A stretch of 23,401 nt of DNA, taken from positions 1-23,401 of the forward strand of contig JWZX01001159.1 of assembly GCA_001275005.1 (NCBI GenBank). Direction: 5' to 3'. The notes under the pieces are model-generated. The model saw only the letters and a program-made list of their open reading frames with translations. It was not told the origin of the DNA and did not search any database. This stretch comes from Chrysochromulina tobinii. Taxonomy: Eukaryota > Haptophyta > Prymnesiales > Chrysochromulinaceae. The number at the start of each line of letters is the position of its first letter. The stretch's first letter is position 1. The position numbers and the translations under genes are program-made. Shown here piece after piece: positions 4,442 to 23,200 of the stretch.

Positions 4442-4910
4442 ACTCATGTGCCAAGCGCGCGGAGATGTGCTGGGGCTGTGAGAGCCCAATAGCTTGTTAA
4501 GCTTGTGCTCTCTATGGGACGACGGGCGCACAGTGACTGCCGGTGTCCGGTGAGCGGTGACGGTTAGTTACCGTGTTCTGACCGTACCAGTGGTCGGGAC
4601 TCGGGTGACCATCAGTCGGGTTGGTTACTCGAGGGCTGGTCAAGATAAAGCTGCGGCCTCTAAAAGGAAGGCCGGTAAGATCAAACATGGCTCAAGCCAC
4701 GGTCAGTGCCCAGCCAGGGGGTCGGCGGGGATGTTTTTTGAGTGTGACGTTGAGTGGTGAGTGAATGTTTGTGTTATTTTCCGGCGGCGTTGGGATTCGG
4801 GAGAGCGGAGGTGAGAACATGGCGAAATAGCGGGAAACAATCGCCCTTTTTGGGACATGTACTGAGCTGACCTTTTCTCAGGATGGCGGTCGTGCTGACC
4901 TTTTCACTCG
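4442..4910. other. Intergenic region, no supported gene
   Basis: It separates two + strand genes. A 16-bp segment at 4666-4681 (GGAAGGCCGGTAAGAT) exactly matches 4171-4186, the candidate splice donor of the MORN exon; nothing else around it is coding. No TATA box or tRNA-like fold was seen. Confidence 0.6.
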
Positions 4911-6087: not shown

Positions 6088-8724
6088 TCACGCGAGCTCG
6101 AGCTGCTGCTGCATCCACGCGATCGCCGCAGCCCATTCGGCGGGTGAGAAGGTCGAGGGGTCTTCATTATGGGCGTCGCGTGGCCGCCCACGCAGCTGGA
6201 TCACCTGTGCAATCAGGCGCAATCAGACGCAATCAAGAGGCAATCAGGAGGCCATCAGAGGGGCCATCAGAGGCCAATCAGAGGCCAATAGAGGCCACTC
6301 AGAGGCGATCACCTCCGTGCCCTCGAGATTGCCATCTCGCTCGAGAGCGTAGACCAGACCTGTGGGGAGAGGCGCCGTGGTGAGCGCTTGCGTGCAGAGG
6401 CTCCATCGAGAATGCCATCTCGCTCGAGAGCGTAGCCCAGACCTGCCCGCAATCAGTCGCAATCAGTCGCAATCAGTCGCAATCAGTCGCAATCGATCGC
6501 AATCAGCGTAGCCCAGACCTGCCCGCCCGATGATTCGATCGCAATCAGTCGCAATCAGTCGCAATCAGTCGCAATCAGTCGCAATCGATCGCAATCGGTC
6601 GCAATCAGTCGCAATCAGACCTGCCCGCCCGATGATTCGATCGCTCGGATGGAACACGATGCATTTACGACCGGATGCGAGAGTACGCCAATGACGCGCC
6701 GTCTCGAGCGGCGCGCGCCATGGCGGTGAGTTGAACGCGAGGCTGAGCGTCGCGCGCACCTGATGAGGGGCGCAATCAGACGTAATCAGAGGTCATCAGC
6801 TGCAATCAGAAGGTCATCGCACCTGAGGAGGGGCGCAATCAGACGTCATCAGAGGTCATCGGCTGTAATCAGAAAGTCATCGCACCTGAGGAGGGGCGCA
6901 ATCAGACGCCATCAGAGGTCATCGGCTGTAATCAGAAAGTCATCGCACCTGAGGAGGGGCGCAATCAGACGTCATCAGACATCCTCATAAGTAATCAGTT
7001 GCCATCCATTGCAATCAGCGTACCAGCCGGCGCACGAGCGGTCGGTCAGGCAGACCGAGCATGGCCCCCAAGACGCAGACAGACACGTCACTCAGAGAGC
7101 TAAACGAGCGCAAGTTGACGCACGGGTACTGTGGGAAATAGGTGGCCGCAACCTCGGCGGCCACTCCTCCACCCATCGACTGTGGGGAGAGGGACGCAAG
7201 CAGATGTGATCAGTGAATTCGCATTCATTCGAAATCAGCCGCAATCGATCGCAATCAGCATTGATCAATCGCAATCAGCCGCAATCAATCAGTCGCAATC
7301 AGTCGCAATCAGTCGCAATCGGTCGCAATCAGTCGCAATCAGTCGCAATCAGTCGCAATCGGTCGCAATCAGTCGCAATCAGCCGCAATCAGTCGCAATC
7401 AGTCGCAATCAGCCGCAATCAGCCGCAATCAGCCGCAATCAGTCGCAATCAGCCGCAATCAGCCGCAATCAGTCGCAATCAGCACGGTCACCTGACCCAG
7501 CAGCAATCAGTCGCAATCAGCCGCAATCAGCCGCAATCAGCCGCAATCAGCATGGTCACCTGACCCAGCAGCAGAATGCAACGGCTCGGCTCAGTCCCCG
7601 CCGCGAGCCTTCCCTCGCAGTAACGAACGCAACGTGCACCGTCCTCGACCATGCCACTCGCACCAAGCAGGAGTCCCCCCGATCGGCCCACGTCACGGTA
7701 GTCGTAGGCAATCACCGAGCAACCCACCTGATGAGGGAGGCAATCAGAGGGCCATCGGAGGCCATCAGGGAGGCACTCAGAGGTAACTCAGAGGCACTCA
7801 TCAGAAGCAATAATCAGAGGCAATCATCAGCACTCATCATCAGCACTCATCATCAGCACTCATCAGAGGCAATCAGTCGCAATCAGTCGCAATCAGAACC
7901 TCAAGCGCGAGCTGCAGCTTCGACCCAAAGCCGCACTCGAGGAACTCGCCGTTGCCACCAAACGTGACAATCCACTTGCCGCTCGCGCGAGGATGCTCGA
8001 TGGCGGCGGCGTCGATGTGACCCAATCGCAGCCGCGTCACCTGGAATTGCGTCCCTGATAAGGCCATGGCGCACGCCTCGCCGGGCGCCATGGCGGCGAG
8101 CGTCCGGTCGATGGTGACGCCACTCCTCGTCACTTTCGAGATGATGAGGGCGGGCATGAGCAAGCCCACGCGCACGATCGTCCACACGAGGCGCAGCGCG
8201 AGCAGCAGCACGGCGGTGTGGCACGCGTACGACGTGTGTGCCGACGCGTTGAGGGGGCCGAGCACCACAGCGCTCGAGGCGGCACTCAGGAGCACCGTGA
8301 TGGCGGTGGCCGGACTGATCGGGTGCAGCGTGGGAGGCCACCCGAGCTTTCCGACCAATGACACGCCCACAACGAGCGCGCCACACGGCGTCGAGACCGT
8401 GATGCCGGTCAGGATGAGGCCGGTGTAAGTGGAGCAGCAGCAGCCGAGGAGCGGCGCGGAGCACGCGACGCCAAACGCGAGCATGCGCACGTGCGTGGTG
8501 GAGGTGTAGCTGCCAACGAGCCGACTGGCGCTGCCAACGAGCCACGAGATGAAGCTGAGGGTCCCCTCGACGGCAAGGAACGCAACTAAAAGGGTGCTCA
8601 TGAAGTCTGCGGGTGCGTTCACGCCCTTGCTCTCTTCAGCCTTCGCACTGTGAATGGTATTGAAGGTCAAACTTGGGGAGCTCCTGCGTGCCAAGTCCAT
8701 GAAGGTCGCCCGAGAGTTAACCAT
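6088..8724 (-). CDS. Membrane-anchored alpha/beta hydrolase, six exons
   Basis: Exons: 8724-7900, 7727-7560, 7179-7024, 6759-6621, 6359-6313, 6204-6088; 483 residues, all junctions GT-AG with matching phases. I start at the first ATG (8724); the open frame before it has only a TTG, and ATGs at 8700 and 8601 are alternatives. The N-terminal ~230 residues hold about four hydrophobic segments. The hydrolase domain starts with WIVTFGGNGEFLE (oxyanion region) and VIAYDYRDVGRSGG. The nucleophile elbow G-Q-S-M-G is made only after splicing exon 2 to exon 3 (Ser332). Asp423 in VFHPSDRIIG and His457 in RDAHNED complete the triad. FGGNGE and YRDVGRS recall the DUF818 / chlamydial CPn0927-type hydrolases. 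The substrate is unknown; a lipid or ester is only a guess. Introns carry CTGATTGC arrays and exon-edge copies. Confidence 0.85.
6205..6312 (-). repeat. Hydrolase intron 5, degenerate CTGATNGCC array
   Basis: 108 nt between GGCACGGAG|GTGATC and GCACAG|GTGATCCAG. Sense strand is mainly CTGATTGCCT, CTGATGGCCC and TGATTGCG units. The intron and the following exon start with the same GTGATC. Confidence 0.85.
6360..6397 (-). mobile_element. Introner-like acceptor cassette, copy 1
   Basis: Sense: TGCACGCAAGCGCTCACC, then ACGGCGCC and CTCCCCACAG, at the 3' end of hydrolase intron 4. It is the shortest and most diverged copy. It is preceded by a ~45-nt copy of the exon 5 start. Confidence 0.7.
6360..6620 (-). 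repeat. Hydrolase intron 4 with joined-exon copies and acceptor cassette
   Basis: 261 nt. In sense order: donor CAG|GTCTGATTGC; CTGATTGCGA arrays; a copy of the joined exon 4-exon 5 sequence (6541-6505); another array; a second junction copy carrying ~45 nt of exon 5 (6449-6402); then the acceptor cassette (6397-6360). Intron and exon 5 both begin GTCTG. Confidence 0.85.
6760..7023 (-). repeat. Hydrolase intron 3, 63-bp tandem units each with a 3' splice site
   Basis: On the + strand CGCACCTGA recurs at 6755, 6818, 6881 and 6944, an exact 63-bp spacing. In sense each boundary reads CCCTCMTCAG|GTGCG, so the exon 4 acceptor and the first five exon bases are part of the repeated unit. The remainder is CTGATTRC/CTGATGACC filler. 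Confidence 0.9.
7180..7559 (-). repeat. Hydrolase intron 2, long decamer array CTGATTGCGR
   Basis: 380 nt, of which ~250 is a 10-bp array (sense CTGATTGCGA or CTGATTGCGG; + strand YCGCAATCAG). A copy of the exon 2 end plus donor (CTGCTGGGTCAG|GTGACC) recurs inside it at 7480-7505. The acceptor is CTCTCCCCACAG, preceded by CTTGCGTCC, a shortened relative of the acceptor cassette. Confidence 0.9.
7728..7899 (-). repeat. Hydrolase intron 1, CTGATTGC / TGATGAGTGC array
   Basis: 172 nt between CTTGAG|GTTCTG and CCCTCATCAG|GTGGGT. Sense strand carries CTGATTGCGA units, then a run of CTGATGATGAGTG-type units at 7803-7868, then CTGATGGCC units. Confidence 0.85.
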
Positions 8725-9325
8725 ACCGTGGAGCTCACCAGCCCCGGCATGCCCCGGGTGGCTAAGCCGGGACTGGGGGACTGGGGAAGCCAGTGGGGTA
8801 GCGGGTTGCGCTAGCGCTATGAGCGCTACTGACAACTGACTACCTCTGCGTACCAGGGACCTGGCTACGTAGTACTTAGCGTAGCTCCGCGAAATATGTC
8901 CGCTGCACGCGGCGCAAAGCGTAAGCGATCCTGAGGCTGAGCGTTAGCTGAGCGCAATTGGCTGAGCGATCAGCGAACGAGGGACCGATATCGCGGGTTT
9001 CGTTTATTTGATTGAAGAGTCCATCTGTACTGACGATGTGTTGTGAGTTTTTTCGTGTCCGGACTGGTGTGGCGCGATGTGGCGTGTTATTTACTTACTT
9101 ACACGACCCGGTGGCGCGACTTAAAAACGGTAAAACGCAACCTCCTCTGAGGCGCGTCACGGTGCACACTCTAGATACGGCATGGGCCGAGAATCTCGCA
9201 GCCAGAGCCAGAGCGCTAAGTCAATCTATAGGAAAGTCGCCGCTCTCTGAGACTATCTCTGCAGTCGCGCATGCGTCGTAGGACGTTGCCCGGCTGTCGT
9301 GCTGATGACGTGGCACGTGCCATCA
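8725..9325. other. Intergenic region upstream of the hydrolase
   Basis: Probably holds the hydrolase promoter and the 3' UTR of the coiled-coil gene. Three GCTGAGCG motifs lie at 8936-8971 and a palindromic TACGTA at 8863-8868. The frame of hydrolase exon 1 stays open to 8835 but without an ATG. No tRNA or clear TATA box was seen. Confidence 0.55.
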
Positions 9326-9820
9326 TCATGAACGGCTCAGGTAGGCTTCGCTCTCTCCCACGGTGATGAGCAGCTCGCGTTTTGTCGCCGCGATGAGCAG
9401 CATCCTCTGCTGCTGCAGCTCCACCTGCTGCGCGAGGCGCCGGCACTGCCCCTTGCTCTCGGAGAGCTCTTCCTGTAGACGCTGCAGCAGCTTGGCGTCC
9501 GACTTGGAGCGGCCGACGCGAGGGCCGGTGGTACTCGGGGCGGGCGGCGTACGCAGCACGAATCCCGCCTCCGCCACCGTCGCGCCGCTCGCGACGAGCT
9601 GCTCCCGCGCCGCAGCAAGCAGGCGGCCCATCAACTGCAGCTCGAGGCGGAGCTGCTCGACGGACTCCTGCAGACGCTCCTGGCGCTCGCGTTCCGTCTG
9701 CAGCTCCTTCTGCAGCCCACTCACCGTCATCGTGGGCCCCGTCGCGCGCTTGTTCGCGTCCGGCAGCAGCGTCGTCGCCGCGCGCTTCTGACCCGCAGCG
9801 AGCTGCGTCGAGGCCGACAT
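9326..9820 (-). CDS. Small coiled-coil protein
   Basis: 164 residues from the first ATG (9820); the frame extends three codons further only from a TTG. After a Ser/Ala/Lys-rich start, residues ~33-75 (MTVSGLQKELQTERERQERL...LRLELQLMGRLL) form a heptad-rich coiled coil. A Pro/Thr linker (RTPPAPSTTGPRVGRSKSD) follows, then a second coiled coil from ~108 (AKLLQRLQEELSESKGQCRR...) to the end. No enzymatic motif, signal peptide or membrane segment is visible. It could be a centrosomal, flagellar or trafficking adaptor, but that is a guess. It is divergent from the CHCH gene, sharing a short upstream spacer. Confidence 0.65.
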   Translation of the reverse strand: MSASTQLAAGQKRAATTLLPDANKRATGPTMTVSGLQKELQTERERQERLQESVEQLRLELQLMGRLLAAAREQLVASGATVAEAGFVLRTPPAPSTTGPRVGRSKSDAKLLQRLQEELSESKGQCRRLAQQVELQQQRMLLIAATKRELLITVGESEAYLSRS

Positions 9821-10011
9821 CGATGCCAAGTTCCTGAGCGCTGTTTCGAGCGACGCATTGAAAGCGCAAAAGAGAGAGTTAGTTAATTTGGTGACCGGGA
9901 GGGGGCTGTCATGGTTGGAAGGTGGGGTTGACGGCTGAGGACGTTACACAAAGATTCCTTGTAGTCCCGGAAAGTCACACGGAACAGGCGCAGCCGACGA
10001 ATCGCTCGTCC
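9821..10011. promoter_or_regulatory. Divergent (shared) promoter spacer
   Basis: Only 191 bp separate the ATGs of two divergently transcribed genes (9820 minus, 10012 plus), so both promoters and 5' UTRs must fit here. I see no TATA box; a T/A-rich patch (GTTAGTTAATTTGG) lies at 9879-9892. The regulatory role is inferred from geometry only. Confidence 0.45.
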
Positions 10012-10522
10012 ATGTCCTCGCAGACGAAAGAGATCGTGACCGAGCGGACCGACGCAGCGCGGTCCGTCCACCGGCCCGGAGAGGAGAGCTCGAAGCTCAA
10101 GCCGGGCAGTTGCGAAGAGCTCGGCAAGGCGTCCGTCAAGGTGCGCCCACGCCTCGTGCGCTGCGTGCGCCGCTGCAGCCATGCATCCGATTCTGCGATG
10201 GGCTTCACACCGATTGTGAAGCCCACTGCACGAAGGATTTGGCGTCTCGGGCCACCAGCTGGCTGCAGCGGATGCTCCGTGGGCGGCAACCCTGCCTTCT
10301 GGATGGCGACTCCGTTGCCGTGCGGATGGCGTCTCCAATCCCGCGCCCCAATCCCGCGGCCGATCTGATCGGAAGCCGCGTGCGTGCCCGCAGTGCATCG
10401 AGAAACATGGCTACAATCGCTCCGCGCCCGAATGCCTGGTCCATTTCGATGCGTACAAGGAATGCCGCAAGAAGGAGACTGCGAGCAGGCAAGGGCTCAA
10501 GTCATTCTTCGGGTCGGGTTAG
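10012..10522 (+). CDS. Twin CX9C (CHCH) protein, COX23/CHCHD7-like
   Basis: Exons 10012-10140 and 10394-10522, phase 0, GT-AG; 85 residues. The spliced protein has C-EELGKASVK-C (nine residues between), then 12 residues, then C-LVHFDAYKE-C (nine residues): the twin CX9C helical hairpin whose two disulfides form in the mitochondrial intermembrane space through the Mia40 pathway. The last pre-intron residue is Lys and exon 2 begins with the second Cys, so the motif exists only after splicing. The stretch CIEKHGYNRSAPECLVHFDAYKEC resembles COX23/CHCHD7, small assembly factors of cytochrome oxidase; length also fits. An N-terminal Ser/Lys/Glu-rich tail lacks a presequence, as expected for Mia40 substrates. 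Another CHCH family member remains possible. Confidence 0.85.
10199..10225 (+). other. Perfect hairpin inside the CHCH-gene intron
   Basis: TGGGCTTCAC, a 7-nt loop ACCGATT, then GTGAAGCCCA: a perfect 10-bp inverted repeat. It lies within the intron 10141-10393. It could shorten the donor-branch distance in the RNA; no function is shown. Confidence 0.7.
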
Positions 10523-11100
10523 AGCGCAGCCTAATTACGTTAACTTTGAGTTCCACCGGTAAGGAAGGCTGGTAATTTTATTCCTTCACATTGGTTAATG
10601 TTAACCACCGCCCGAGACAAAGACCTCGGGGGCGCCCGTCGCTCCAAGTCGCTCCGGTCAATGCCCCCCCGGGTCATCGGCACCAGCGTGAGCGAGCGGA
10701 GTACCCCCGGCGTGCTCGCGTCTTTCAGTCCAGTGCATGGTCCAGTGCAATGCAGTGCTGGCGGCTGCGGGTGGGCGCAGCGAGGTTTTCGGTCTCGCTG
10801 GCCGTTCTCAGCTGTGTTGAAACGCTCCCTACTTGTAGCGCGAAAACCAACTGTGAGAAGTGAGACGGTTACACGAGACGGCGCTTGTGAGACGTGATAG
10901 AAGAGAGCTGCAGAGAGCGCGCCCCCAAAATGTCGCGACTCACATGAGCCGGTGTCGTTTCGTTTCCGAAGACATGTTTGGATGTTTGGGACCTCTTGCA
11001 CGCTTTCGGCCACAGACGGTCCGAGGGCCCGGGGGCGCTTGGCCGGCGCGCGGCGAGCGACGCCCGAGCCGCGCAGCAGCTGCGTCAGTCCACGTCGAGT
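10523..11100. other. Intergenic region, no supported gene
   Basis: Between two + strand genes. The frame of the downstream gene is open back to 10978, including an ATG at 10978, but that stretch (GHRRSEGPGALGRRAA...) looks like translated UTR. Long reading frames on the - strand here have no domain or codon pattern to support them. Confidence 0.55.
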
Positions 11101-12609
11101 ATGGCCGATGCGGCCAAGCCAGCTGCGCCGCTGGTTCGAACCCCAAGCATGCTGGCGATCGTCAAATCGGTGACGGCGCTCGATCACGTCTTGCACAACG
11201 CCAGCTCGTCGCCCGCCTCGGCGGCGCAGCTTTCGATGCGGCTGCACGACATCTACCAGCGCGCGGCGGCGGCGCGCGAGATGATCCGGCTGACGCAGGA
11301 GCGTCGCAAGGAGGAGCAGCGCGACGAGTTCCGCGCGATGCTGCTTGGGATCAAGCCGCCCTCACCAGAAGTGCTTGAGCAGATTCGTCAGATGGGCTCG
11401 CCGCGCAAGGCGGGCATGCCAGACAGCAAGCAGCTGGACGAGGAGGACCTGCGGTACCGGCGCGAGTTCCGCGAGCGCAAGGCGCGCGAGAAGGCCGAGA
11501 AGGCGGCGAAGCTGAAGGCTGAGAACGCGGCGATGCGCGCTCGCATCAAGGGCACCAAGGCGGCAACGGACAATGACGCGAGCGACGACGCGACGGGCGC
11601 GGCGCGGCTCAAGGCGGCCAAGGAGGCGGCGCAGCGGCGCGCGCTCTCGATGCAGGCGATGGCGCAGAAGAATGCCGAGTTGAAGATGCGCATCGCCAGC
11701 ACCGGAGCCGCGACGGACAATGACGTGAGCGATGACGCGACGGGCGCGGCGCGGCGCGCGGCGGCGAAGGCATCGAAGCAACGGAAGGCGGAGGAGGCGG
11801 CGCAGCTGGCCGAGGAGAACTCGCAGCTGTTCTCCATGATCCGTTCGACTGGCGCCGCCACCGATAATGACGTGTCCGACGACGCGATCGGCGCGGCGCG
11901 GCGCAAGGCCGCCATGGACGCCAAGGACGCTCGGGATCGGGAGGCGGCGGCGATCAAGGCGCAGAATGCGGCGATGAAGGCGCGGATTGCGAGCACGGGC
12001 GCGGCGACGGACAATGACGTGCGCGACGACGCGACGGGCGTCGCGCGCCAAGCCGCTGCTCGTGCGGCCGCAGAGAACCGACTGGCTGCCGCCGAGGCGC
12101 TCACGAACGCCAATGTGGCGCTTGGGGCGAAGCTCGGGGCGATCGGGGCTCCATCCGCGATCATCCCGGTGGTCAAGGTGACCACGCCGAAGAAGAAGGA
12201 CTCGCCTAAGAGCTCCAAGTCGCCAAAGGCCGCCAAGGAGAAGGCCTACCTCGCGATGCCGCCCGGCGCGGCCCCCTCATCCGAGGAGGCGGTCCTGGCC
12301 GCGGTCACTGTTGTGCCTCCACCGCCCGCCGCGCTCGCCAAGGCGCGATCGCACAAGCCGCCGCCCGAGGACGAGGCGTCCAAACGGGGCAAGTCTGCGA
12401 GCAGCCGAGCGCCAAAGGGCGATGACGAAACCTCTAGACAACAAAGCTTGACCTTCCGGCCGGATCTTGAGTTCAAGCCGAAATCCGTCAATCTCGACAA
12501 GAGCGATCTCGAGCAGCAGATTCATTTGGATGAGTGGCTCGATCAGCTTGCGATCGAGGCCAAAGGCGTTTCGGGCGCCTCGGAGTACGACACGCCGCGT
12601 ATCTGGTGA
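11101..12609 (+). CDS. Coiled-coil protein with four 49-residue ATDND repeats
   Basis: 502 residues from the ATG at 11101 (an upstream ATG at 10978 is less likely). The N-terminal third is alpha-helical and highly charged (MIRLTQERRKEEQRDEFRAM; RRYREFRERKAREKAEKAAK-type). The centre has four repeats of exactly 49 residues: a helix, then (R/M)I(K/A)(G/S)T(K/G)AATDND(A/V)(S/R)DDA(T/I)G(A/V)AR. The conserved Asp-rich loop between helices could bind a divalent cation, but this is inference. The C-terminal third is Pro/Lys/Ser-rich (KKKDSPKSSKSPKAAKEK) and ends in an acidic helical tail. There is no signal peptide or membrane segment. I do not recognise the family; a cytoskeletal or filament role is a reasonable guess. 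Confidence 0.8.
   Translation: MADAAKPAAPLVRTPSMLAIVKSVTALDHVLHNASSSPASAAQLSMRLHDIYQRAAAAREMIRLTQERRKEEQRDEFRAMLLGIKPPSPEVLEQIRQMGSPRKAGMPDSKQLDEEDLRYRREFRERKAREKAEKAAKLKAENAAMRARIKGTKAATDNDASDDATGAARLKAAKEAAQRRALSMQAMAQKNAELKMRIASTGAATDNDVSDDATGAARRAAAKASKQRKAEEAAQLAEENSQLFSMIRSTGAATDNDVSDDAIGAARRKAAMDAKDARDREAAAIKAQNAAMKARIASTGAATDNDVRDDATGVARQAAARAAAENRLAAAEALTNANVALGAKLGAIGAPSAIIPVVKVTTPKKKDSPKSSKSPKAAKEKAYLAMPPGAAPSSEEAVLAAVTVVPPPPAALAKARSHKPPPEDEASKRGKSASSRAPKGDDETSRQQSLTFRPDLEFKPKSVNLDKSDLEQQIHLDEWLDQLAIEAKGVSGASEYDTPRIW
11519..12106 (+). repeat. Four coding repeats of 147 bp
   Basis: The marker ACGGACAATGAC (or ACCGATAATGAC) starts at 11566, 11713, 11860 and 12007, spaced by exactly 147 bp each time. 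Units are diverged in the helical part and conserved in the loop, so the period has been kept by selection or by recent turnover. Confidence 0.9.
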
Positions 12610-13220
12610 GAGAGAGGATAGGGCGCCGTGCCGAGCAGCGGCCCGCCGCCCTATCCCCCCTTCTCTCTCCTCCGGCGGCGGCGTGCTGCAAGAGAGGCGC
12701 TCTAGGAATCCTTTACGTACATTGGCAGTGGACTCGGCAACGGCATGCATCCCCTGGTGCTGCGAAGGCCCGATTCTTCGGGTGTCCGTGAGCGCCTGTC
12801 AGGTGTTTGGTCTTCTGTATTTTACATGGGAGCATGGAAGTAAAGGAGAAGAACCAGTATCCGTGATATGTGCTCGGCACGGTGTTCTCGATGACGGGCG
12901 GGCGCTCAAAAACGATTTCGAGACGGAGTTTCGGACGGGTTGCTTCGGAGCGACGGAGGTCGGAGCGTGTAGGTCCGGTCGATTTGGGGGCAAGGTGACT
13001 GCTCGACCGCCTTCAGCTCGATTGCAGACCTCATCATCGAGGTGCGTGTACAATGTTCTGCGTCCGTTGAGCGTTTGGCAGGCTGTCTCGATGGTTACGC
13101 GACGAAACTGACTTCCGCAGGCGCGGCGACCTCCTGTGTCGCCCGTCGTCGCGATCCAACGGTGTCCTAATCGGTGCCTGTGCCGACAGCCAGGTCTCCG
13201 GCGCAAACACGGGCGACACC
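12610..13220. other. Intergenic region with a 3' UTR hairpin
   Basis: Just after the stop at 12609, GGATAGGGCG (12616-12625) pairs with CGCCCTATCC (12647-12656), and the flanking GAGAGAG/CTCTCTC can extend the stem. The remainder to the synthase ATG has no supported gene; it should contain the synthase promoter. Confidence 0.6.
12616..12656 (+). other. Inverted repeat in the 3' UTR
   Basis: A perfect 10-bp stem with a 21-nt loop, beginning seven bases after the stop codon of the 49-residue-repeat gene. In a eukaryote this is not a classical terminator; it may be an RNA stability or 3'-end element. Confidence 0.6.
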
Positions 13221-14840
13221 ATGGCCGCGGAGGAGCCGAAGGTCGTGTGCATCGTGGGCGTGGCCGGCTTCATCGGCTCGCACCTGCTCGAGAAGATCCT
13301 CCGCGAGCGTCCGTGGCAGGTCATCGGCGTCGACATGGCTGAGCCGACTAAGATCGAGCAGCTCCTTGGCGGGGAGAAGAAGTGGGCCGCGCGCTTCGAG
13401 TTCCACCAGATGGACATCGTCAAGGCGGGGCCCGAGCTCAAGAAGCTCGTCGCGCGTTCCGACGTCGTCATCAACCTCGCCGCCATCTGCAACCCGTCGG
13501 AGTACATCAAGCAGCCCGTCAACACGATCAACTCGAACTTCACGGACGCACAGGACTGCATCAAGTTCTGCGTGGAGTACGACAAGCACCTGATCCATTT
13601 CTCCACGTGCGAGGTCTACGGCCGTACCCTCGCCTCGTACGGGCTGCCCGCCGAGGACCCGAAGAATTACATTCTCGACGAGGAGACGACGCCGATGATC
13701 ATGGGGCCCGTCTCGGCGCAGCGATGGTGCTATGCATGCGCGAAGCAGCTGGTGGAGCGGCTGATCTACGCGCACGGCACCGAGAACAACCTCAAGTTCA
13801 CCATCGTCCGCCCGTACGCATCAAGAATGATTGCCTCTGATTGCCTCTAATTGCCTGTAATTAACCTCAAGTTCACCATCGTCCGCCCGTACGCATCAAG
13901 AATGATTGCCTCTGAGGACCTGATTGCCTGTAATTGCCGCCTCAATTGCCTCTAATTGCCTCTACTTGCCGCCTCTAATTGCCGCCGCACAGGTACAACT
14001 GGATCGGCCCTCGAATGGATTACGTGCCTGGTGTGGATGGAAAGGATGACGGCCAGCCGCGCGTGCTTGCCTCATTCATGACGGCGTTGATGAAGGGCGA
14101 GCCGCTTGTGCTCGTCGACGGCGGAGAGGTCTACCGTACCTTCTGCTTCGTCGACGACGCTGTCGAGTCGGTCGTGCGCATGATCGATCGCCCCGAGAAG
14201 TCCATCGGGCATGCCTTCAACGTGGGCAACCCGATGAACAACATCCTCCACTGATGACCTCTGATGACCTCTGATGACCTCTGATGACCTCTGATTGCCT
14301 CCCTCATTGCATGCAGGTGGGCAACCCGATGAACAACATCCAGATTAAGGAGCTCGCCGCTCTCATGATTGAGTTGTACTCAGGCCTGACGGGCAAGCCG
14401 CTCGGGACGACGCGCGATGTGGCCGGCGTCGACTACTACGGCAAAGGGTACCCCCCTCTCTCGCATTCGACCTCCCCACATCTCCCCACATCTCCCCACA
14501 TCTCCCCACATCTCCCCTTCTCTCGCATTCTACCTCTCTCCATCTCCCCACATCTCCCCACATCTCCCATTCGAGGACTCCCGACCTTCCTCATCCCTGG
14601 CTCTGCATGCAAGTGCTCACCACGGCGCCATCACGTCCCCACAGGTACGAGGATTCCGACCTTCGGATCCCTTCGATGCGTCTCGTCAAGTCGCAGCTCG
14701 ACTGGGAGCCGGCGACGAGCTTGAGGCAAGCGATGGAGGCGACGATGAAGGTCTTCATCGAAAAGTACGCGGACAAGCTCGCGTCGAAACGTGCAGCACA
14801 GGAGGCGGACATGCCCGCTGCCAAGGCTCTCAAATTGTAG
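13221..14840 (+). CDS. AXS: UDP-D-apiose/UDP-D-xylose synthase (AXS-like SDR)
   Basis: Exons 13221-13813, 13993-14221, 14317-14447 and 14645-14840; 382 residues, close to the ~389 of plant AXS; all introns GT-AG with matching phases. ATG context is ACCATGGCC. This extended short-chain dehydrogenase would convert UDP-glucuronate, with NAD+, to UDP-apiose and UDP-xylose in the cytosol. Evidence: the Rossmann loop GVAGFIGSHL (13-22); AAICNPSEY (C90, Y95) and FSTCEVYG (C130, E131), positions of key active-site residues in plant AXS as I recall them; the Y171-x3-K175 dyad in WCYACAKQL; then VRPYNWIGPRMDY, GEVYRTFCFVDDAVES, FNVGNPMNN and YGKGYEDSDLRIPSM, which track the plant enzyme. ArnA-type decarboxylases share part of this, but the C-terminal YEDSDLRIP block favours AXS. 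Products would feed cell-surface polysaccharides or glycans. Confidence 0.88.
13814..13992 (+). repeat. Synthase intron 1, with a 53-bp duplicated exon/donor segment
   Basis: CCGCCC|GTACGC ... GCACAG|GTACAAC. The 53 bp at 13788-13840 (last 26 bases of exon 1 plus the first 27 of the intron) is repeated perfectly at 13863-13915. The rest is GATTGCCTCT/AATTGCC filler. Intron and exon 2 both start GTAC. Confidence 0.92.
14222..14316 (+). repeat. Synthase intron 2, flanked by a 25-bp direct repeat
   Basis: 95 nt, phase 0. The first 25 bases (14222-14246) equal the first 25 of exon 3 (14317-14341), coding VGNPMNNI. The insert between them is TGATGACCTC repeated four to five times, then CCCTCATTGCATGCAG. 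Confidence 0.95.
14448..14644 (+). repeat. Synthase intron 3, TCTCCCCACA array plus acceptor cassette
   Basis: 197 nt. GGCAAAGG|GTACCC ... CCCCACAG|GTACGAG. A run of CATCTCCCCA units (14475-14570) offers many acceptor-like CCCCACA sites. A diverged copy of the exon 4 start (14574-14603) precedes the cassette at 14604-14644. Confidence 0.88.
14604..14644 (+). mobile_element. Introner-like acceptor cassette, copy 2
   Basis: TGCATGCAAGTGCTCACC, ACGGCGCC, TCCCCACAG at the 3' end of synthase intron 3. It is the only copy on the + strand, in the only + gene that has one, so orientation follows the gene. Confidence 0.75.
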
Positions 14841-14846
14841 CCGTGC

Positions 14847-14970
14847 CCACGCAAGCAGCCGCCGCAGCCGCAGCCGCAGCGGGCAGCCGCAGCCGCAGCG
14901 CGCAGCCGCAGCGCGCAGCCGCAGCCGCAGCATCCGCCACAGCAGCCGCCGCCGCAGCAGCAGCCGTATT
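14847..14970 (+). repeat. GCAGCC-rich microsatellite in the 3' UTR of the synthase gene
   Basis: An imperfect array of GCAGCC/GCAGCG hexamers with GCA and GCC triplets starts a few bases after the TAG. It is not in the coding frame of any supported gene. Confidence 0.85.
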
Positions 14971-15551
14971 CCCTCTCTTCGCGTCGTATTTTTGAGCACT
15001 GCTCTCTTTCGTAACCTGTACCTGGAAAGTACCTGGAAGATACTAGACGTGTGCTGTGCCTGTGGTATACATGTATGTGGCGTGGGCGGTGGCCGTGCTC
15101 AAGGGTGAACGGACTCCGGGCTCGGCGGCACCTACGCGTGGCTTAGGCGTGGCTTACTCGGTGGCAGCCGAGAGCCGTACTCGGTGGTACTCGCTCCAGT
15201 TGTACCACAGTACTCACCCGTAGTTGTACAGAAGCAAGTAGTATAACAAAGGTCGGTAGGTGACCTAGCTTGTGCTTGAATTTAAAGGTCGACCATAGTA
15301 GATAGTTACGCCTTTTTTTACGAGCGGTCGAGGAGACGGACGCGCCGAGAGCGGAGCCGGAGAGGCAAACTTCCTTTTTCCTTAATTTTTACCGCACTCG
15401 TATGGTAAAGAATAAACGAAGCAATTGAAACGAAGTATATAAGAAGTATAAATAGTATTTACGCCGCCTGTGTCGAGCGGTCTTAAGGACGAGTAAGGCG
15501 TATATTCGGACAGTGGCGAGCTTGCAGCTCGCAGGGTTTCTAAGGGTTTCG
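14971..15551. other. Intergenic region with an AT-rich TATA-like patch
   Basis: Between the synthase 3' end and the Cys-rich gene fragment. TATATAAG (15436-15443) and TATAAATAG (15447-15455) sit in an AT-rich island near 15390-15460. No gene starts convincingly on either side, so a promoter role is unproven. Confidence 0.5.
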
Positions 15552-15755
15552 TCATAAATAACTACACCCAATCTCCCCCGATCTGTCCTCGGGCTGACAG
15601 GCTCGGCAAAGATGCTCCTCCGCCCCGCCCACCACGGCGCTCCTCAGGCTCAGCCCGACGCACCACCACTCACTCCCTCGGACGGGCGGTGCACACTCCC
15701 GTACTGGTAGACCCAAGACCGGCTCGCCCATCGGTTGGTTCGGGTTCGGGTACAT
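15552..15755 (-). pseudogene. Truncated copy of the MYPNPN Cys-rich family
   Basis: The start MYPNPNQPMGEPV matches the two full copies to the right. After EPV an extra 7 bp (GGTCTTGGGTCTACCAG versus GGTCTACCAG) shifts the frame, and the original frame (VYQYG...) soon reaches a stop at ~15650. The PQYAQ repeat and Cys-rich domain are absent. The 67-residue frame left open is probably not functional. A new short protein cannot be excluded. Confidence 0.7.
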
Positions 15756-16067
15756 GTCTGTCTGGGGAGCGCGCCGCACGCTCCCGCGGCTGCGGACCGG
15801 TGTCCGGTGGACGCGTGGACCAGCGACCACGGGCCGCGCGACCGCGCGGGGCTCGACGTTTTTTCACTCAGGCACGAGGCAGCGGAATTCACACCGGTCT
15901 AACACCGGTCGTCACAGTGCAGATCACCCTACCCAGCCATGCAACACCACTGCATACCTGCCTAACATGGACGTCTTCAACCGAACCGCCGCTGACCACG
16001 TCAGCCCATGCACACCGCTTCCTGGTTCCTGCTAACGTCGTCTCGGCCATCTCCGCCCGACGCACCC

Positions 16068-16853
16068 TCAGCCCACCTGGTGAACCACGGTCTGCGTCTG
16101 AACGATCGTCTGGCGCGTCAGGTCGCCAATCGTCAAGCAGCACCCTAGCTGTGGGACACACACGAATCCGCAGCATGCAATTGTGAAGGGCACCTCATCG
16201 TCAGGGGGCAGTGCCGCGCTGTGAACGAGGCAGCAGCACTGATGCTGCGCTTTGATGCACGTGGTCTGCTCCTGGAGGCAGCGGATGGCCATGCACACGC
16301 ACGCGATCCCGTCCTGCGGCTGCTCGAGCGCTTGGGTACCTAACTTGAGGCAGCACTCCACCTCGAGGCAGCAGAGGACACCCTTAGCTACCACGCCGCA
16401 GCAGTGATCACTCGCATCCGTGCACGAGGTGTTGCAACAGAAGCAGCCGTGGATGAGCGTGAGCTTCGACTCGTCGATGCTGTCCGGGAGCATCCGGTGC
16501 TTCTGCGCAGCGGCAGAGGTATTCACGAAGACGTTCTGTTGCGTGACGACTGTCGTCGGTGGGGCCGCGACATGAATGATCTGCGGCTGCGGCGCTGCCA
16601 TGTGGGCGTTGACGTTCACTTGAGGCTGGGCGTACTGAGGCTGCTGGGCGTACTGAGGCTGGGCGTATTGAGGCTGCTGAGCGTACTGAGGCTGCTGAGC
16701 ATACTGAGGCTGCTGGGCGTACTGAGGTGCACCCCCGTAGACGGGCTGAGCCATCGGCGGTGCTCCTCCGTAGACGGGCTGTGCCATCGGCGGTGCCCCC
16801 CCGTACTGGTAGACCGGCACGCCCATCGCGGGTTGGTTCGGGTTCGGGTACAT
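16068..16853 (-). CDS. MYPNPN Cys-rich protein, copy A
   Basis: 261 residues, single exon. Order: MYPNPNQPAMG start; two APPMAQPVYGG repeats; a run of PQYAQ repeats (Pro/Gln/Tyr-rich, disordered, similar in style to annexin or synexin N-termini); a short VNVNAHMAAPQPQIIHV stretch; then a Cys-rich domain of ~140 residues (HGCFCCNTSC..CCGVVAKGVLCCLEVECCLKLG..CIKAQHQCCCLVHSAALPPDDEVPFTIACCGF). CC pairs recur. The Cys pattern suggests a disulfide-bonded or palmitoylated, possibly membrane-associated domain, but I do not recognise it. Copy B is ~90% alike in the C-terminal domain; A has TDASDH where B has ACMED. Start is the conserved ATG; the frame is open further upstream without homology. Confidence 0.82.
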   Translation of the reverse strand: MYPNPNQPAMGVPVYQYGGAPPMAQPVYGGAPPMAQPVYGGAPQYAQQPQYAQQPQYAQQPQYAQPQYAQQPQYAQPQVNVNAHMAAPQPQIIHVAAPPTTVVTQQNVFVNTSAAAQKHRMLPDSIDESKLTLIHGCFCCNTSCTDASDHCCGVVAKGVLCCLEVECCLKLGTQALEQPQDGIACVCMAIRCLQEQTTCIKAQHQCCCLVHSAALPPDDEVPFTIACCGFVCVPQLGCCLTIGDLTRQTIVQTQTVVHQVG

Positions 16854-17106
16854 GTCTGGTCTTGCTCCGCCAAACAGCCGCTTGCTTACAAGTAGAAGCG
16901 CGGGGCAGGCCCCGACTGGCTTTCGTTCTCCAGTTGAATTCACACCGGTCATCACAGTGCGGATCACCCTACCCAGCCCAAGCAACACCACTGCATACCT
17001 GCCACATGGACGTCTTCAACCGAACCGCCGCTGGCCACGTCAGCCCATGCACGCCGCTTCCTGGTTCCTGCTAACGTCGTCTCGGCCATCTCCGCCCGAC
17101 GCACCC

Positions 17107-17937
17107 TCAGCCCACCTGGTGAACCACGGTCTGCGTCTGAACGATCGTCTGGCGCGTCAGGTCGCCAATCGTCAAGCAGCACCCTAGCTGTGGAACACAC
17201 ACGAATCCGCAGCATGCAATTGTGAAGGGCACCTCATCGTCAGGGGGCAGTGCCGCGCTGTGAACGAGGCAGCAGCACTGGTGCTGCGCTTTGATGCACG
17301 TGGTCTGCTCCTGGAGGCAGCGGATGGCCATGCACACGCACACGATCCCGTCCTGCGGCTGCTCGAGCGCTGGGCTACCTAACTTGAGGCAGCACTCCAC
17401 CTCGAGGCAGCAGAGGACACCCTTGGCTACCACGCCGCAGCAGTCCTCCATGCACGCGCACGAGGTGTTGCAACAGAAGCAGCCGTGGATGAGCGTGAGC
17501 TTCGACTCGTCGATGCTGTCCGGGAGCATCCGGTGCTTCTGCGCAGCGGCAGAGGTATTCACGAAGACGTCCTGTTGCGTGACGAATGTCGTCGGTGGGG
17601 CCGCGACATGAATGATCTGCGGCTGCGGCGCTGCCATGTGGACGTTGACGTTCACTTGAGGCTGAGCGTACTGAGGCTGCTGGGCGTACTGAGGCTGCTG
17701 AGCGTACTGTGGCTGCTGAGCATACTGAGGCTGCTGAGCGTACTGAGGTGCACCCCCGTAGACGGGCTGAGCCATCGGCGGTGCACCCCCGTAGACGGGC
17801 TGAGCCATCGGCGGTGCACCCCCGTAGACGGGCTGAGCCATCGGCGGTGCTCCCCCGTAGACGGGCTGAGCCATCGGCGGTGCACCTTCGTACTGGTAGA
17901 CCGGCTCGCCCATCGGTGGGTTCGGGTTCGGGTACAT
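17107..17937 (-). CDS. MYPNPN Cys-rich protein, copy B
   Basis: 276 residues, single exon, tandem paralogue of copy A. It has four APPMAQPVYGG repeats against two in copy A, followed by PQYAQ repeats and the same Cys-rich domain (GCFCCNTSCACMEDCCGVVAKG...). The C-terminus DLTRQTIVQTQTVVHQVG is identical in both. No signal peptide is seen at the Met, which argues for a cytosolic or membrane-peripheral protein if the Cys are lipidated. Stop-to-stop spacing between copies is 1039 bp. The function is unknown. Confidence 0.82.
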   Translation of the reverse strand: MYPNPNPPMGEPVYQYEGAPPMAQPVYGGAPPMAQPVYGGAPPMAQPVYGGAPPMAQPVYGGAPQYAQQPQYAQQPQYAQQPQYAQQPQYAQPQVNVNVHMAAPQPQIIHVAAPPTTFVTQQDVFVNTSAAAQKHRMLPDSIDESKLTLIHGCFCCNTSCACMEDCCGVVAKGVLCCLEVECCLKLGSPALEQPQDGIVCVCMAIRCLQEQTTCIKAQHQCCCLVHSAALPPDDEVPFTIACCGFVCVPQLGCCLTIGDLTRQTIVQTQTVVHQVG

Positions 17938-18345
17938 GTCTGGTCTGTGTGGGCTCCGCTCGCTTCGGCTCGACCGAGGCTAAGGCAAGCAAGCAAGCAG
18001 GGCAAACAAGTTTTATTCACACCTATCAACACAGTGCAGAACAGTAACCTTCCCCCGACGCGGCGCCCGCACCGCGTGCACACGACCTTCCTTTGCGCTT
18101 TGGAAAATCCACCCGCCTTAAGCCTCCCGGCTCCCCCTCAGAACGCGACGCGAGCTTTACCGATGATAACTACGCGGTTACGCTAGTAAGTACTGGGCTG
18201 CGTGAAGCGCTGCTTAAGGGCGCTGATCGTAGTACTGTATGTTTTATGGCGCACTGCTGGTCCGCTGTCTCTCCCTCTGCCTCCCAGGCCCCGATAGCTC
18301 AATTTCGAGAGACTCTCCCTGCGCGACGGCGCCCTGTGCAACTTT
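17938..18345. other. Intergenic region upstream of Cys-rich copy B
   Basis: Holds the promoter of copy B and the 3' UTR of the EF-hand membrane gene. GGCTAAGGCAAGCAAGCAAGC (17979-17999) is a short GCAA repeat. No gene or clear promoter motif was seen. Confidence 0.5.
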
Positions 18346-19998
18346 CTACCCGTCCCAGCCGCAACATTCTCTATCAGTTATCTCATTCCAAATCCTCAGG
18401 CGTACCTCGCGCCAGAGATTAAATCTCGGCCGTTGCAAGCAGCACGCGCACTGGTCGGCGTCCCCACCGGGTGGCATCGTGCGCCCCAGCAGGACGCCGC
18501 TCATGAAGACGGCCAGGAACGCCAGCGCCCACACGAGCGAGGTGCGGAAGGGGGGAGATCCGTTGGCGGAGGGGGGAGATCCGTTGGCAGCAGCTTTCGC
18601 CCCTCGCCACCCGTTGACGGCTGTGGTAGCCGCCTGCCGCCCCCCCTGCCAACAGTCGACGGCGGTGGCCCTGGCCCCTTTTGCCCAGCTCTGGCCGAGG
18701 GCCTGTCGCACCGCTCGGCTTCTGACGAGTAGCGAGGCCAAGCTCGCGAGGATTCTGACGAGCAGTTGACGATGACGATCGTCCTCGAGTCCGCTGAGGG
18801 CGGCATTCAACTGCGCCAGACGCAGGCCATCGTCGGCATACGCAGCCTTGGATGATTGGCCAGGCTCACCACCATGCAGGGCAGGCGAGGACGAAACCTC
18901 TGGCGAGGACGGCATGGCGTTAGACGAAGACGAGTGCAGGATCGAAAACATGTACGATCGCTTCGAAAATGCCGTTGGGCTTGTTGCTTGGACGGGCAGC
19001 TGCGTCCTGACTTTCTTCCAAGCCTGGCCCGGAGACGAGGCACCATCTCCCGTCTTCGAGGCACCATCTCCCGTCTTCGAGGCACCATCTCCCGGCATAA
19101 AGGGCCTGGGCTCCAAGGGAGCGGCGAGCTCCGGAAGGGGGCGCGGATCACGGTCCGGACTGGGCGAGAACGGACTCAAGGATTGCGAGCCGGATCGCCG
19201 CTCCGCGGGCGCCGACTGCGGATGCGGCGCGGCGGGCGCTAGCACGTCGCCCGGACTCCGACGTTGGCGTTCGCCTGGACTCCGCTTCGTCGGCGAAGGA
19301 CTCCGCTTCGTCAGCGAAGGACTCCGCTTCGTCGGCGAAGGTGTTGATGGGCGCAGGATGTCTTTCAGCTCGCGGTAATCGAGGAAGCCCGAGTAGTCGC
19401 AGTCGAAGCGCCGAAATAGGGCATCCACAGCCTCTGACGTTGCCCGTAGACCCAGCACTGCAAGAGCCCTGCGGAAGTCGGTGGCGGAGATTTTGGTGGC
19501 GACCGCTTCTGGGCGAGGTCGGTCCTCGTCCCACGCATGGAAATGGTCGAGTACCCGGATGCGATTGGCGCGCAGCAGCTCTCTGAGCTGCTCGATGGCC
19601 GCGTCGGGCACTCTGCTATTGGGAGGGATGTGCAGCTTGGTACCTGCGCCTCTCGACCCACCGAGCGGGAGGAAGACGCGCTTCTTCCTCGGATCTCGGA
19701 CGTACGGGCGAAGCCTGTCGAAGATGTCATCTATGCTCAACACGCCGGCCGCGTCCTCGTCGAGTGCCGCGAAGCACCGGTCGATCGCCTCGTCGCTTTG
19801 TTCAGAGTGTCCGAGGCTGCGCACGGCGTTCCGGAAGTCCTCGGGGCAGACGGAGCGCGTCCCCGCTCGCTCGAGGATTTGACGAATTTGGGCCGACTGG
19901 CGGCTGAGCTTTTCGAAGAGGGACGCTCGGTCGTAGTGGGCGGATGCCGTGGAGGGTGGCGACCTGTTCGGCACGCCGGCATCGTGCGCCGTTGGCAT
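18346..19998 (-). CDS. EF-hand protein with C-terminal transmembrane anchor
   Basis: 550 residues, single exon, ATG start. Residues ~25-100 form a degenerate EF-hand pair; the second loop (D80-D91) has Asp in place of the usual final Glu. Residues ~135-215 form another pair, whose last loop D199-E210 (DCDYSGFLDYRE) is canonical and should bind calcium. A disordered Ser/Pro/Arg segment follows, with three TKRSPSP repeats (~222-241) and three GDGAS repeats. A hydrophobic stretch at ~487-505 (SLVWALAFLAVFMSGVLLG) should anchor it in a membrane. The short tail has CACC and CC. It probably senses calcium at a membrane face; partners unknown. Confidence 0.8.
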   Translation of the reverse strand: MPTAHDAGVPNRSPPSTASAHYDRASLFEKLSRQSAQIRQILERAGTRSVCPEDFRNAVRSLGHSEQSDEAIDRCFAALDEDAAGVLSIDDIFDRLRPYVRDPRKKRVFLPLGGSRGAGTKLHIPPNSRVPDAAIEQLRELLRANRIRVLDHFHAWDEDRPRPEAVATKISATDFRRALAVLGLRATSEAVDALFRRFDCDYSGFLDYRELKDILRPSTPSPTKRSPSLTKRSPSPTKRSPGERQRRSPGDVLAPAAPHPQSAPAERRSGSQSLSPFSPSPDRDPRPLPELAAPLEPRPFMPGDGASKTGDGASKTGDGASSPGQAWKKVRTQLPVQATSPTAFSKRSYMFSILHSSSSNAMPSSPEVSSSPALHGGEPGQSSKAAYADDGLRLAQLNAALSGLEDDRHRQLLVRILASLASLLVRSRAVRQALGQSWAKGARATAVDCWQGGRQAATTAVNGWRGAKAAANGSPPSANGSPPFRTSLVWALAFLAVFMSGVLLGRTMPPGGDADQCACCLQRPRFNLWREVRLRIWNEITDRECCGWDG

Positions 19999-20219
19999 CC
20001 TACTTTCCTACGGCGAGAGAGCGCTGAATCGCGACGGTGCCGATGCCGGTCGAGATGTGGCAAATTACCCGATGCGCGCTGCTCTTTCTTGGATTCCTCG
20101 GTTTGGAATCTTACCGGTACCTTTACTTCAAACACTCGTATTCGACCCCCGGTATAGTTCCGCGGCGCGTGTGAAACCACAAAAGAACCCGAGAGGATGC
20201 GGCAACAACGCTCACGACG

Positions 20220-23200
20220 TCATCGAAGCTCATCACCTAGCGGTGCGAGGAGCGCGGCCATAGCGCGCAGGAGGGGCAGCGCACGGCCGGCGGTCATAGC
20301 AGCGGCCGCGCTCACGGCGGGCCGGGGCGGCCGCTCGCGCCCCCCGCACTGGTCGTCACGCTCGCCCGAGCGCGAGCCGCGGACGCTGCCGTTCCCGCTG
20401 CTGCTGCCGCTGCCGCTGCCGCTGCTGCTGCCGTCGTCGGCGTCGCGCGCTTGGAAGGGCGCTTGGAACGGCTTCAGTCCTCGTGAGGGGAGGAGGTCCG
20501 CGAAGATGGAGGGCGGCTCGGTGTCAATCGAGAGCATCAGCTGACCTGTAATGATGTGCAATCATGTGCAATCAGTAGCCATCAGCAGCAATCAGTTGCA
20601 AGGGCTGCTCGGTGTCAATCGAGCGCATCCGTGCCCAAATATGGTTCGGCATCCCAAAGATGGCAATCGAGCGCATCAGAATCGAGCATCATCTCTCACT
20701 GATTGCCTTCCTAATGGTAAAGGTCATCAGTGATGCAATCAGAGAGGCAGTTAGGAAGGCAATTACCGTACGAATGGTAAAGGTCGATGGTGGCATTGCT
20801 CGGCCCGACTCGACCCCGACGTGCCTTGCTCATCTCATTATCGATGACCACGCCTACGTGGCCTATCCCTGGACGGCCGTCGGCTGTTGGGCGCGTGCTC
20901 ACGCTGTACGATCCGTCCGCCTGCCGCAATCAGAGGTCATCAGAGGTCATCAGAGGTCATCAGAGGTCATCAGAGGTCATCACGCTGTACGATCCGTCCG
21001 CCTGCCGCAATCAGAGGTCATCAGAGGTCATCAGAGGTCATCAGAGGTCATCGGAGGTCATCAGAGGCCATCAGAGGTCATCAGAGGCCATCAGAGGTCA
21101 TCAGAGACCATCAGAGGTCATCAGAGGTCATTAGAGGCCATTCACACCTGCCCTTTGGAGAAGCTCGCCTTCACACTTCCCGCCATCGAGCCCAGCTCAA
21201 CCGCGTAGTTCGCGCCCGCGACGGCGCCGCCGTAGCTCGTGGACGCGCCCTCCGAGATTAAGCCCGAGATCCCAATCGAGCCGTGGCGCGAGATTGCGAC
21301 GAGATTGGGAGCGCCGAGAGCGGGCACCGAGCCGTTGATGACCTCGGTCATCGGTAAGAGCACCTGCTCGATGAAGGGACTTCTGATGAGGGACGCAATC
21401 AGAGGCAATCAGAGGCAATCAGAGGCCATCAGAGGCAATCAGAGCACCTGCTCGATGAGGGACTTCTGATGAGGGACGCAATCAGAGGCAATCAGCAGAG
21501 GCAATCAGCGCACCGGGTCGGTGAGGGAGATTCCGCCAGATCCGGAGCTCGCAATCAGATGCTATCAGAGGCAATCAGAGGCAATCAGAGGCAATCAGCG
21601 CACCGGGTCGGTGAGGGAGATTCCGCCAGATCCGGAGCTCAGATTGAATACATGCGCCGTCGCGAGCGTGGCTGAGAGCGACGCCCACTCGCTCGAGAAG
21701 CGAAGGCCCTGTGGGGAGAAGGAGGGGCGCGCCGTGGTGAGCACTTGCATGCAAGCCGCGCCCACCCGCTCGAGAAGGGAAGGGCCTGTGGGGAACTGGA
21801 GGACGCCATCAGGTGCAATCAGGGACGCCAGCATATGCAATTAGTGACGTCATCAGGCGCCATCAGACGCAATCAGACGCAATCAAATGCAATTAGGGAC
21901 GCAATCAGACACCTGCGAGCCGTAGGTTGGGGCGGGGCAGGTGCAGAAGAGAAAGCCATCAAGTAATTGGGGCGCCGATGGTGTAGGCGAGACGAGCTCT
22001 TCCCAGCTCAGAGTGCCGACGAGCTCCGACTGCTTGCAGAAGGAGCAATCGAGGGTGACGGTGTTGCTGAGGGAGGCGGCCCCATCGCCGTGCTCGATGA
22101 TCACGTCGGCTCGCCCGAGGAAGTGCGTACCTGTGGGGAAGGGGGGGAGGATGGCGCCGTGGTGAGCACTTGCATGCTCGATGGTCACGTCGGCTCGCCC
22201 GAGGAAGTGCGTACCGCCCATGATGATAAAACCACTCGGACTGGCGGGGGGGGAGGGAGGGGAGGGGGGAGGGGGTCATCAGGGGTCATCAGAGGTCATC
22301 AGCGGTCATCAGGGGTCATAAGGGGTCATCGGCCGTCCTCAGCCGTCATCAGCCGTCCTCAGCCGTCCTCAGCGCACCTGTACAAACGCGAGCGCGCCGC
22401 GCCGAAGGTGCCATTGCCCAAGATGGCGCCCGACACGGCGCCCGTCGCCGTGAGGGAGATCTCGCCGAGGACGAGCGCGTACGGGCCGCTGATTGCCTTC
22501 GCAATCACGTGCGGCAGCGGCAGCGGCTCGCGAGGCGCCGGCTTCTTGCCACGTGGCGCGCCGAGTTGGGCGCACGCGGGGCCGCCGATCCAGCCGTTGA
22601 GGAAGCGCAAGCCGGGCGGCAGCTCGATGAACATGCACGGCTGATGAGGGAGGCAATCCGCATGCAATCAGGAAGCATGCACGGCTGGGCGACGAAGAAG
22701 ACGTAGGGTCATCAGAGGGTCATTAGAGGGTCATCATATGGTCATTAGAGGGTCATCATATGGTCATCAGAGGTTCATCAGGCGCAATCAGACGTCATCA
22801 GACGCAATCAAGGCTCCTCACCTGAGCGACGAAGACGTCATCATATGGTCATCAGAGGGTCATCAGGCGCAATCAGACGTCATCAGGGCTCCTCACCTGA
22901 GCGACGAAGACGTCGCCGACGGCGAGCGCCGCGCCTCGAGCGTCCACGCTCTGTGAGGCAAGTAGGGACGTGAGGCTGACCTGTGGGGAAAGGGGAGCGG
23001 GGCGCCGTGGTGAGCACTTGCATGCAAGCGACCACGCTCTGTGAGGCCTAATTAGGGACGTGAGGCTGACCTTTTGGCCGTTTAGTCCACGCTCAGGGAC
23101 GCAATCAGGGACGCAATCAGGGACGCAATCAGGGACGCAATCAGGGACGCAATCAGGGACGCAATTAGGGACGCAATCAGGGACGCAATCAGGGACGCAA

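Follow-up and report, generated by a model that had tools for sequence, protein, structure and literature searches.

The window analysed here is contig JWZX01001159.1 of the Chrysochromulina tobinii assembly (23,401 nucleotides, GC content 62.2%), one of the 2253 contigs, totalling 53,154,812 bases, in which the genome searches were made (it is contig C421 of that set). It carries five copies of a short cassette that a preliminary description had picked out at the 3' ends of introns in three genes. These copies are real and not chance resemblances. With up to three mismatches, TGCATGCAAGTGCTCACC occurs exactly five times in the window, at every place given for it (6379-6396, 21736-21753, 22161-22178 and 23009-23026 on the minus strand, 14604-14621 on the plus strand), and 100 shuffles of the window gave a mean of 0.02 matches and never five. 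After each occurrence come ACGGCGC, a stretch rich in pyrimidines and CCCCACAG, in that order. The unit is nevertheless better described than it first was, as a 24-nt core, GCATGCAAGTGCTCACCACGGCGC, followed by a variable tail. In the list below, this core with its acceptor-bearing tail is the type A module, and copies 1 and 2 are direct copies of exon sequence upstream and downstream of the inserted piece.

13221-14840, plus strand: UDP-apiose/UDP-xylose synthase gene, with three introns (13814-13992, 14222-14316 and 14448-14644)
14448-14644, plus strand: intron ending in a type A module (core 14605-14628, tail 14629-14644)
14572-14589 and 14648-14664, plus strand: flank copies of the preceding intron, a remnant of copy 1 and copy 2, weak (score 11.5)
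14222-14316, plus strand: intron with a second, different filler (CTGATGACC units, ending in TTGCATGCAG); copy 1 at 14222-14246, copy 2 at 14317-14341, 25 nt
6360-6442, minus strand: type A intron; copy 1 at 6403-6442, core at 6372-6395 (a two-mismatch variant), tail at 6360-6371, copy 2 at 6320-6359; score 32.5
21709-21783, minus strand: module beside an existing acceptor; copy 1 at 21759-21783, core at 21729-21752, tail at 21709-21728, copy 2 at 21682-21706; score 20
22131-22214, minus strand: type A intron; copy 1 at 22178-22214 (37 nt), core at 22154-22177, tail at 22131-22153, copy 2 at 22094-22130; score 34.5
22981-23070, minus strand: type A intron; copy 1 at 23027-23070, core at 23002-23025, tail at 22981-23001, copy 2 at 22939-22980; score 33
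7486-7571, minus strand: possible intron of the mirror type (type B), recognised by eye; CTGCTGGGTCAG copies, the first followed by the donor GTGACC and CTGATTGCGG repeats

The host gene previously described as a sugar-nucleotide synthase is indeed one, a UDP-apiose/UDP-xylose synthase. Removal of its three introns leaves a 382-aa protein that is colinear with PDB 6h0n (E=3.8e-120) and gap-free at the three junctions. Its closest matches are environmental proteins, and its named relatives include those of the haptophytes Chrysotila carterae (79% identity) and Prymnesium sp. (75%). Only the third of these introns ends in the cassette, and the earlier statement that the cassette always ends at a splice acceptor is supported by protein homology for this copy, at 14604, alone among the five. 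The naming of another host gene as a hydrolase stands on less firm ground, its best Pfam match, Hydrolase_4, scoring 24.7 bits against a cut-off of 27.

The cassette is abundant in the genome at large. An exact 20-mer of the core, GCAAGTGCTCACCACGGCGC, occurs 495 times (255 forward, 240 reverse), and the predicted association with a nearby acceptor is borne out, with CCACAG lying 3-28 nt after 311 of the 495; the reversed controls gave no occurrences in either search. A looser core combined with a stricter end (GTGCTCACCACGRCGC, 3-28 nt, CCCCACAGGT) finds 483 copies, against none for the reversed control, so that this one genome holds many similar copies at different intron positions, as is characteristic of introners. 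The 20-mer had no match in a collection of prokaryote genomes. The main counts given below come from 131 loci, 130 from this genome and one from IMG/VR, together with the window (314,692 bases); the sample is non-random, nearly all loci having been chosen because they contain the exact 20-mer. Within it there are 191 distinct copies of GCATGCAAGTGCTCACCACGGCGC with at most four mismatches and enough flanking sequence. A pyrimidine-rich tail ending in YAG, defined by rule, follows 159 of these and is absent from 32, which are in part mirror forms and in part insertions of the core alone. Among the 159 acceptor-bearing copies the tail is 12-24 nt long in 141 (recounted from the length table), the final eight bases are CCCCACAG in 112, and GT directly follows the YAG in 123. 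Two contigs, C101 and C235, are near-identical (96% over 1.6 kb, including a 71-nt gap), implying that the assembly may contain haplotypes or recent duplicates, in which case not all of the copies counted are independent.

The idea of a portable module holds, and it is incomplete, since the cassette sits between two direct copies of exon sequence. The exon sequence that runs on from the acceptor is also present upstream of the core for 96 of the 159 acceptor-bearing copies, in a test in which the second copy must start no more than 4 nt from the acceptor and the score must reach 14; with upstream flanks taken from other loci the same test succeeded in 3 of 782 cases. The remaining 63 of the 159 fail it, which counts against the reading developed below. 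One of the 96 was dropped because its copy 1 ran off the end of the stretch. In 80 of the 95 then analysed both flank copies start with GT, and the context of the site is AG/GTRCGC (78 sites; the stroke marks the border). Within the window the copies are clear around four of the five cassettes (scores 20-34.5), with a weak remnant at 14604, where simple-repeat sequence separates copy 1 from the donor GT of the intron. The 21709 cassette is a special case: its flank copies lack an initial GT, and another CCCCACAG already precedes copy 1.

This layout suggests that copy 1 supplies the 5' splice site, and that excision of copy 1 together with the cassette would restore the original message. The introns so defined are short, the 85 that are below 100 nt having a mean length of 78 nt. 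Where the core is cleanly joined (a gap of 0-3 nt), the flank copies are 19-48 nt long (mean 34.0, sd 5.9, n=40), the other 55 of the 95 cases having longer gaps to the core; the median identity between paired copies is 96%. Such a spread does not support a target-site duplication of fixed length. The inserted filler does lie between direct repeats of exon, as in break-repair introns of the Daphnia type, the repeats here being longer than the 4-12 bp of Daphnia. A minimum intron length that sets the length of the copies is unsupported (copy side against insert length, r=-0.02). Loss of flank copies with age likewise found no support, mean core mismatches being 0.45 for modules with copies (n=96) and 0.77 for those without (n=48; p=0.26).

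One way to arrive at such a layout is plain tandem duplication, either of an intron 3' end plus the beginning of the exon after it, the case described for the RNA-dependent RNA polymerase (RdRp) gene of potato, or of an exon segment containing AGGT. Tandem arrays, which such duplication fits, do occur: eight of the 80 cases with GT at the start of both copies have a core upstream of copy 1 (L022 and L077 are examples). For the other 72, however, the 75 nt upstream of copy 1 contain neither core nor acceptor, and there the insert cannot have come from a tandem parent intron unless that parent has since been lost. We regard tandem duplication as very unlikely to be the explanation.

The inner end of the insert, where copy 1 meets the core, is informative in the 17 copies in which the two are flush. 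For four of these the second flank copy runs on into GCATGC, which is another core. Among the remaining 13, ten have G as the exon base that comes next (exon frequency 0.33, p=0.0015), and in seven the following dinucleotide is GC (dinucleotide frequency 0.14). This excess amounts to microhomology with the first bases of the core, in a sample that is small and not fully independent (L073 lies within an array).

Several observations bear on whether these elements are spliced in the sense orientation, as had been proposed. Of 171 pairs of cores that lie 150-3000 nt apart, 169 share a strand, in line with the expected strand bias; at distances above 3 kb, measured in the window only, three of seven pairs do. 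A small codon model, trained on three window frames (a fourth being skipped) and used with no separate null, favours the sense strand in 70 of 80 loci. By the same model the best sense frames before and after the module agree in 35 of 45 cases. Among the 53 introns with a length not divisible by three, frames agree in 34 if the intron is spliced, compared with 10 if it is not. Judging from protein homology in one gene and from frame and strand, individual copies may be spliced. The distance from TGCTCAC to the AG at the intron end has a median of 27 nt, and this spacing, together with the motif itself, makes TGCTCAC the likely branch point. The proposal of a portable branch point and 3' splice site in sense introns is supported; it missed the donor supplied by duplicated exon, the mirror form and the second filler.

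The same observations weigh on the possibility that these sequences are not introns, or are artefacts of assembly. Some core-only copies without splice sites would be in keeping with it. The paired flank copies are nevertheless not identical (96% median identity), and the junctions restore both reading frames and a conserved protein, with the insert ending in YAG/GT in 123 of 159 cases, so that this explanation seems to us scarcely tenable.

A second form of the element has the opposite layout. In some copies CTGATGACCTGCCTT precedes the core, and a 32-mer, CTGATGACCTGCCTTGCATGCAAGTGCTCACC, matches 190 places in the genome with at most two mismatches. Nine loci with the exact 32-mer were inspected, and five of them (L133, L134, L136, L137 and L139) show a mirror layout, in which the element lies between two copies of 15-35 nt that both end in CAG, and the donor follows immediately after the first copy. 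This donor is GT except in L133, where it is GC. The other four (L132, L135, L138 and L140) have a tandem or unclear layout, and further examples of the mirror form are L081 and L124. In this form, which we call type B, it would be the element that carries the donor and the second exon copy that supplies the acceptor. Mirror forms with filler of the CTGATTGC type, picked out by eye, are L016, L020, L027, L028, L072 and L111.

Nor is the layout confined to one filler. At CTCATCAG/GT sites, which belong to a second filler of unrelated sequence, an anchored exon copy was found in 14 of 28 cases, compared with 0 of 131 in the control. All 14 have GT at copy 1, and they partly share loci (L029 occurs twice and L050 three times). 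Repeats of the CTGATTGC type precede CTCATCAG/GT in the examples viewed. For TTGCATGCAG/GT the corresponding figures are four of seven and, in the control, 0 of 27; at the non-acceptor contexts CAC/GT and GAC/GT an exon copy was found in two of 39 and one of 33. Across the genome GATTGCCTCCCTCATCAGGT was counted 666 times, against none for its control. A second filler with the same layout implies that flank duplication is tied to intron gain in this genome, and not to one particular element. Counting against this, a blind scan of 341 repeat pairs without the core gave no enrichment over reversed motifs for either form (type A 16 versus 11, type B 13 versus 15). The bare 24-nt core is also found inserted flush between direct copies of about 24-44 nt with no acceptor, some of these in tandem (L010, L083, L085 and L120); such insertions suggest that the duplication of the flanks is independent of splicing.

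How might these introns have been gained? One candidate is a classic introner. In such a non-autonomous DNA transposon one of the two splice sites comes from the target-site duplication; in Symbiodinium the 3' site belongs to the element and a 4-bp duplication gives the 5' site. The many near-identical copies found here, and the way in which one splice site is carried and the other recruited, follow the same logic. The duplications, however, are 19-48 nt and variable, compared with 3-9 bp in published cases, and so lack the constant short length of a target-site duplication; moreover, the two mirror forms have only the core in common, and an unrelated filler shares the layout. We think a transposon unlikely. 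Target-primed reverse transcription of intron RNA would give a fixed 3' end, a ragged 5' end and a duplication of variable length. Type A conforms to this, with its fixed acceptor end, its ragged core end with microhomology and its variable duplication. In type B, on the other hand, the polarity is opposite, for there the donor end is the fixed one and the 3' end is ragged, and we consider reverse transcription an improbable route.

We consider it probable that these are introner-like and apparently recent spliceosomal introns, built from partial introns, in which each gain was completed by duplication of the flank. The layout, its two mirror forms, its recurrence with two unrelated fillers and the agreement of strand and frame are observations, and are much firmer than the mechanism of gain, which we infer with moderate confidence. 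In type A, the inserted piece carries the branch-point core and the acceptor (core, pyrimidine tail and CCCCACAG) and is placed just 5' of an exonic GTRCG, with some 19-48 nt of exon, from that GT onward, on both sides of it. The upstream exon copy would then act as the 5' splice site, and removal of copy 1 with the insert would leave copy 2 and an unchanged message. In type B, the piece carries a donor arm (GTACGYTGATTGCCACTGATGACCTGCCTT) along with that core; AG stands at the end of both exon copies, and the second copy would serve as the acceptor. The intron end may have been copied or captured during template switching or the repair of a staggered break, such that the new piece meets the exon flush at its splice-site end, while its ragged inner end rejoins the exon some 15-50 nt further back, with 1-4 nt of microhomology at the join, duplicating the flank. 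Types A and B would then be one kind of event on opposite strands. Template switching, or repair of a wide staggered break, with a captured piece of intron is favoured because it fits the flush and ragged ends, the variable copies, the mirror forms, the two fillers and the sense orientation together. A flush end might also be sharpened by nothing more than selection for functional splicing.

A more specific version can be offered tentatively, at somewhat less than an even chance. Introns would spread as halves: a polymerase travelling on an exon would leave it at a splice-site-like AG/GT, copy one intron end including the branch point, and fall back on the exon a few tens of nucleotides away, so that one splice site is copied and the other comes from duplicated exon; this could happen on either strand and would need no transposase. 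The data on local donors are mixed: neighbouring copies share more 5' four-mers than distant ones (12% versus 3%) and more tails (11% versus 6%), yet fewer identical cores (22% versus 42%, partly a sampling effect). No empty sites were found among the sampled loci, where all 40 spanning matches lay in the query's own or overlapping loci (tandem or self). The 71-nt length difference between C101 and C235 was considered as evidence of presence and absence and set aside, as it probably falls in a simple-repeat stretch.

Comparison with systems already described brings out what is shared and what is not. In the parts of the Gozashti et al. 2022 survey drawn on here (PMC9860276), introners are repeated, short, sense-oriented makers of GT-AG introns in aquatic protists, with one splice site carried and one taken from duplicated flank, as in our case. 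The duplications quoted there are 3-9 bp, however, and the family reported from a Chrysochromulina sp. metagenome has 4-bp copies and carries its own 5' site, whereas the duplications here are variable, about 19-48 nt, and there are two mirror forms that share a branch-point core. The screen used in the survey accepted only introns whose similarity began inside a 15-base zone at each end. Type A introns, whose 5' part is a locus-specific exon copy, would be expected to fail this criterion, as judged from the rule and not from a rerun of the screen. The requirement is thus a reason why a large published survey could have missed introns of this kind. If introns do spread as halves, screens that depend on both ends would be blind to such gains, and similar invasions may be widespread and unseen.

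Introns attributed in Daphnia to the repair of staggered double-strand breaks also lie between direct repeats of adjoining exon, of 4-12 bp; in contrast to the present case, the portions of that report considered here (PMC4202315) describe no portable module of branch point and acceptor common to the introns. For the potato RdRp intron, the account consulted (PMC4974935) has a duplicated exon segment providing the donor, and an existing intron the branch site, tract and acceptor. Here, by comparison, 72 of 80 cases have no adjacent parent intron, and the same insert recurs at hundreds of places. The introners of Amoebophrya, according to the sections used (PMC7789003), resemble ours in having direct repeats across exon/intron boundaries; these are of 3-5 nt, with inverted repeats of 8-20 nt and largely non-canonical ends, unlike the long copies and mostly GT-AG ends found here. 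Direct repeats near intron borders were surveyed at 4-30 bp, mean 11.4, in the text available from a further study (PMC11782384), and the C. tobin genome paper gives, in the part cited, a single intron per gene on average (PMC4580454). The layout was not described in the titles and abstract openings covered, few of them from subscription papers, on introners (in haptophytes, with target site duplication, in Emiliania/Chrysochromulina, and after 2023) or on intron gain by microhomology.

The origin of new introns is a long-standing question. Here a single genome offers hundreds of copies, many with flanks that still record their formation, and both mirror forms and two unrelated fillers are represented among them. 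It is these surviving flanks, mirror forms and fillers that allow transposase, reverse transcription, break repair and template switching to be tested directly against each other.

A virus was also considered as a carrier, and rejected. One IMG/VR contig, L031, holds the module at its very end (4499-4554, acceptor and GT); searches of the viral contigs with a type B 23-mer and a CTCATCAG 22-mer gave no matches. Judged by eye, most of L031 resembles bacterial or phage sequence whereas the final few hundred bases look algal, and it is perhaps a chimeric assembly that includes sequence from a related freshwater or marine alga.

Finally, the window contains other repeats. Long arrays of units of about 10-12 nt lie inside likely introns on the minus strand at 23095-23280 and 6440-7560; these units contain CTGATTGC-like words that resemble a branch-point consensus repeated many times. 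Between 15890 and 17960, a region with repeated GGCTGCTGAGCGTACTGA-like units can be seen by eye to be present twice, as long direct copies that are nearly identical and look like a recent local duplication.
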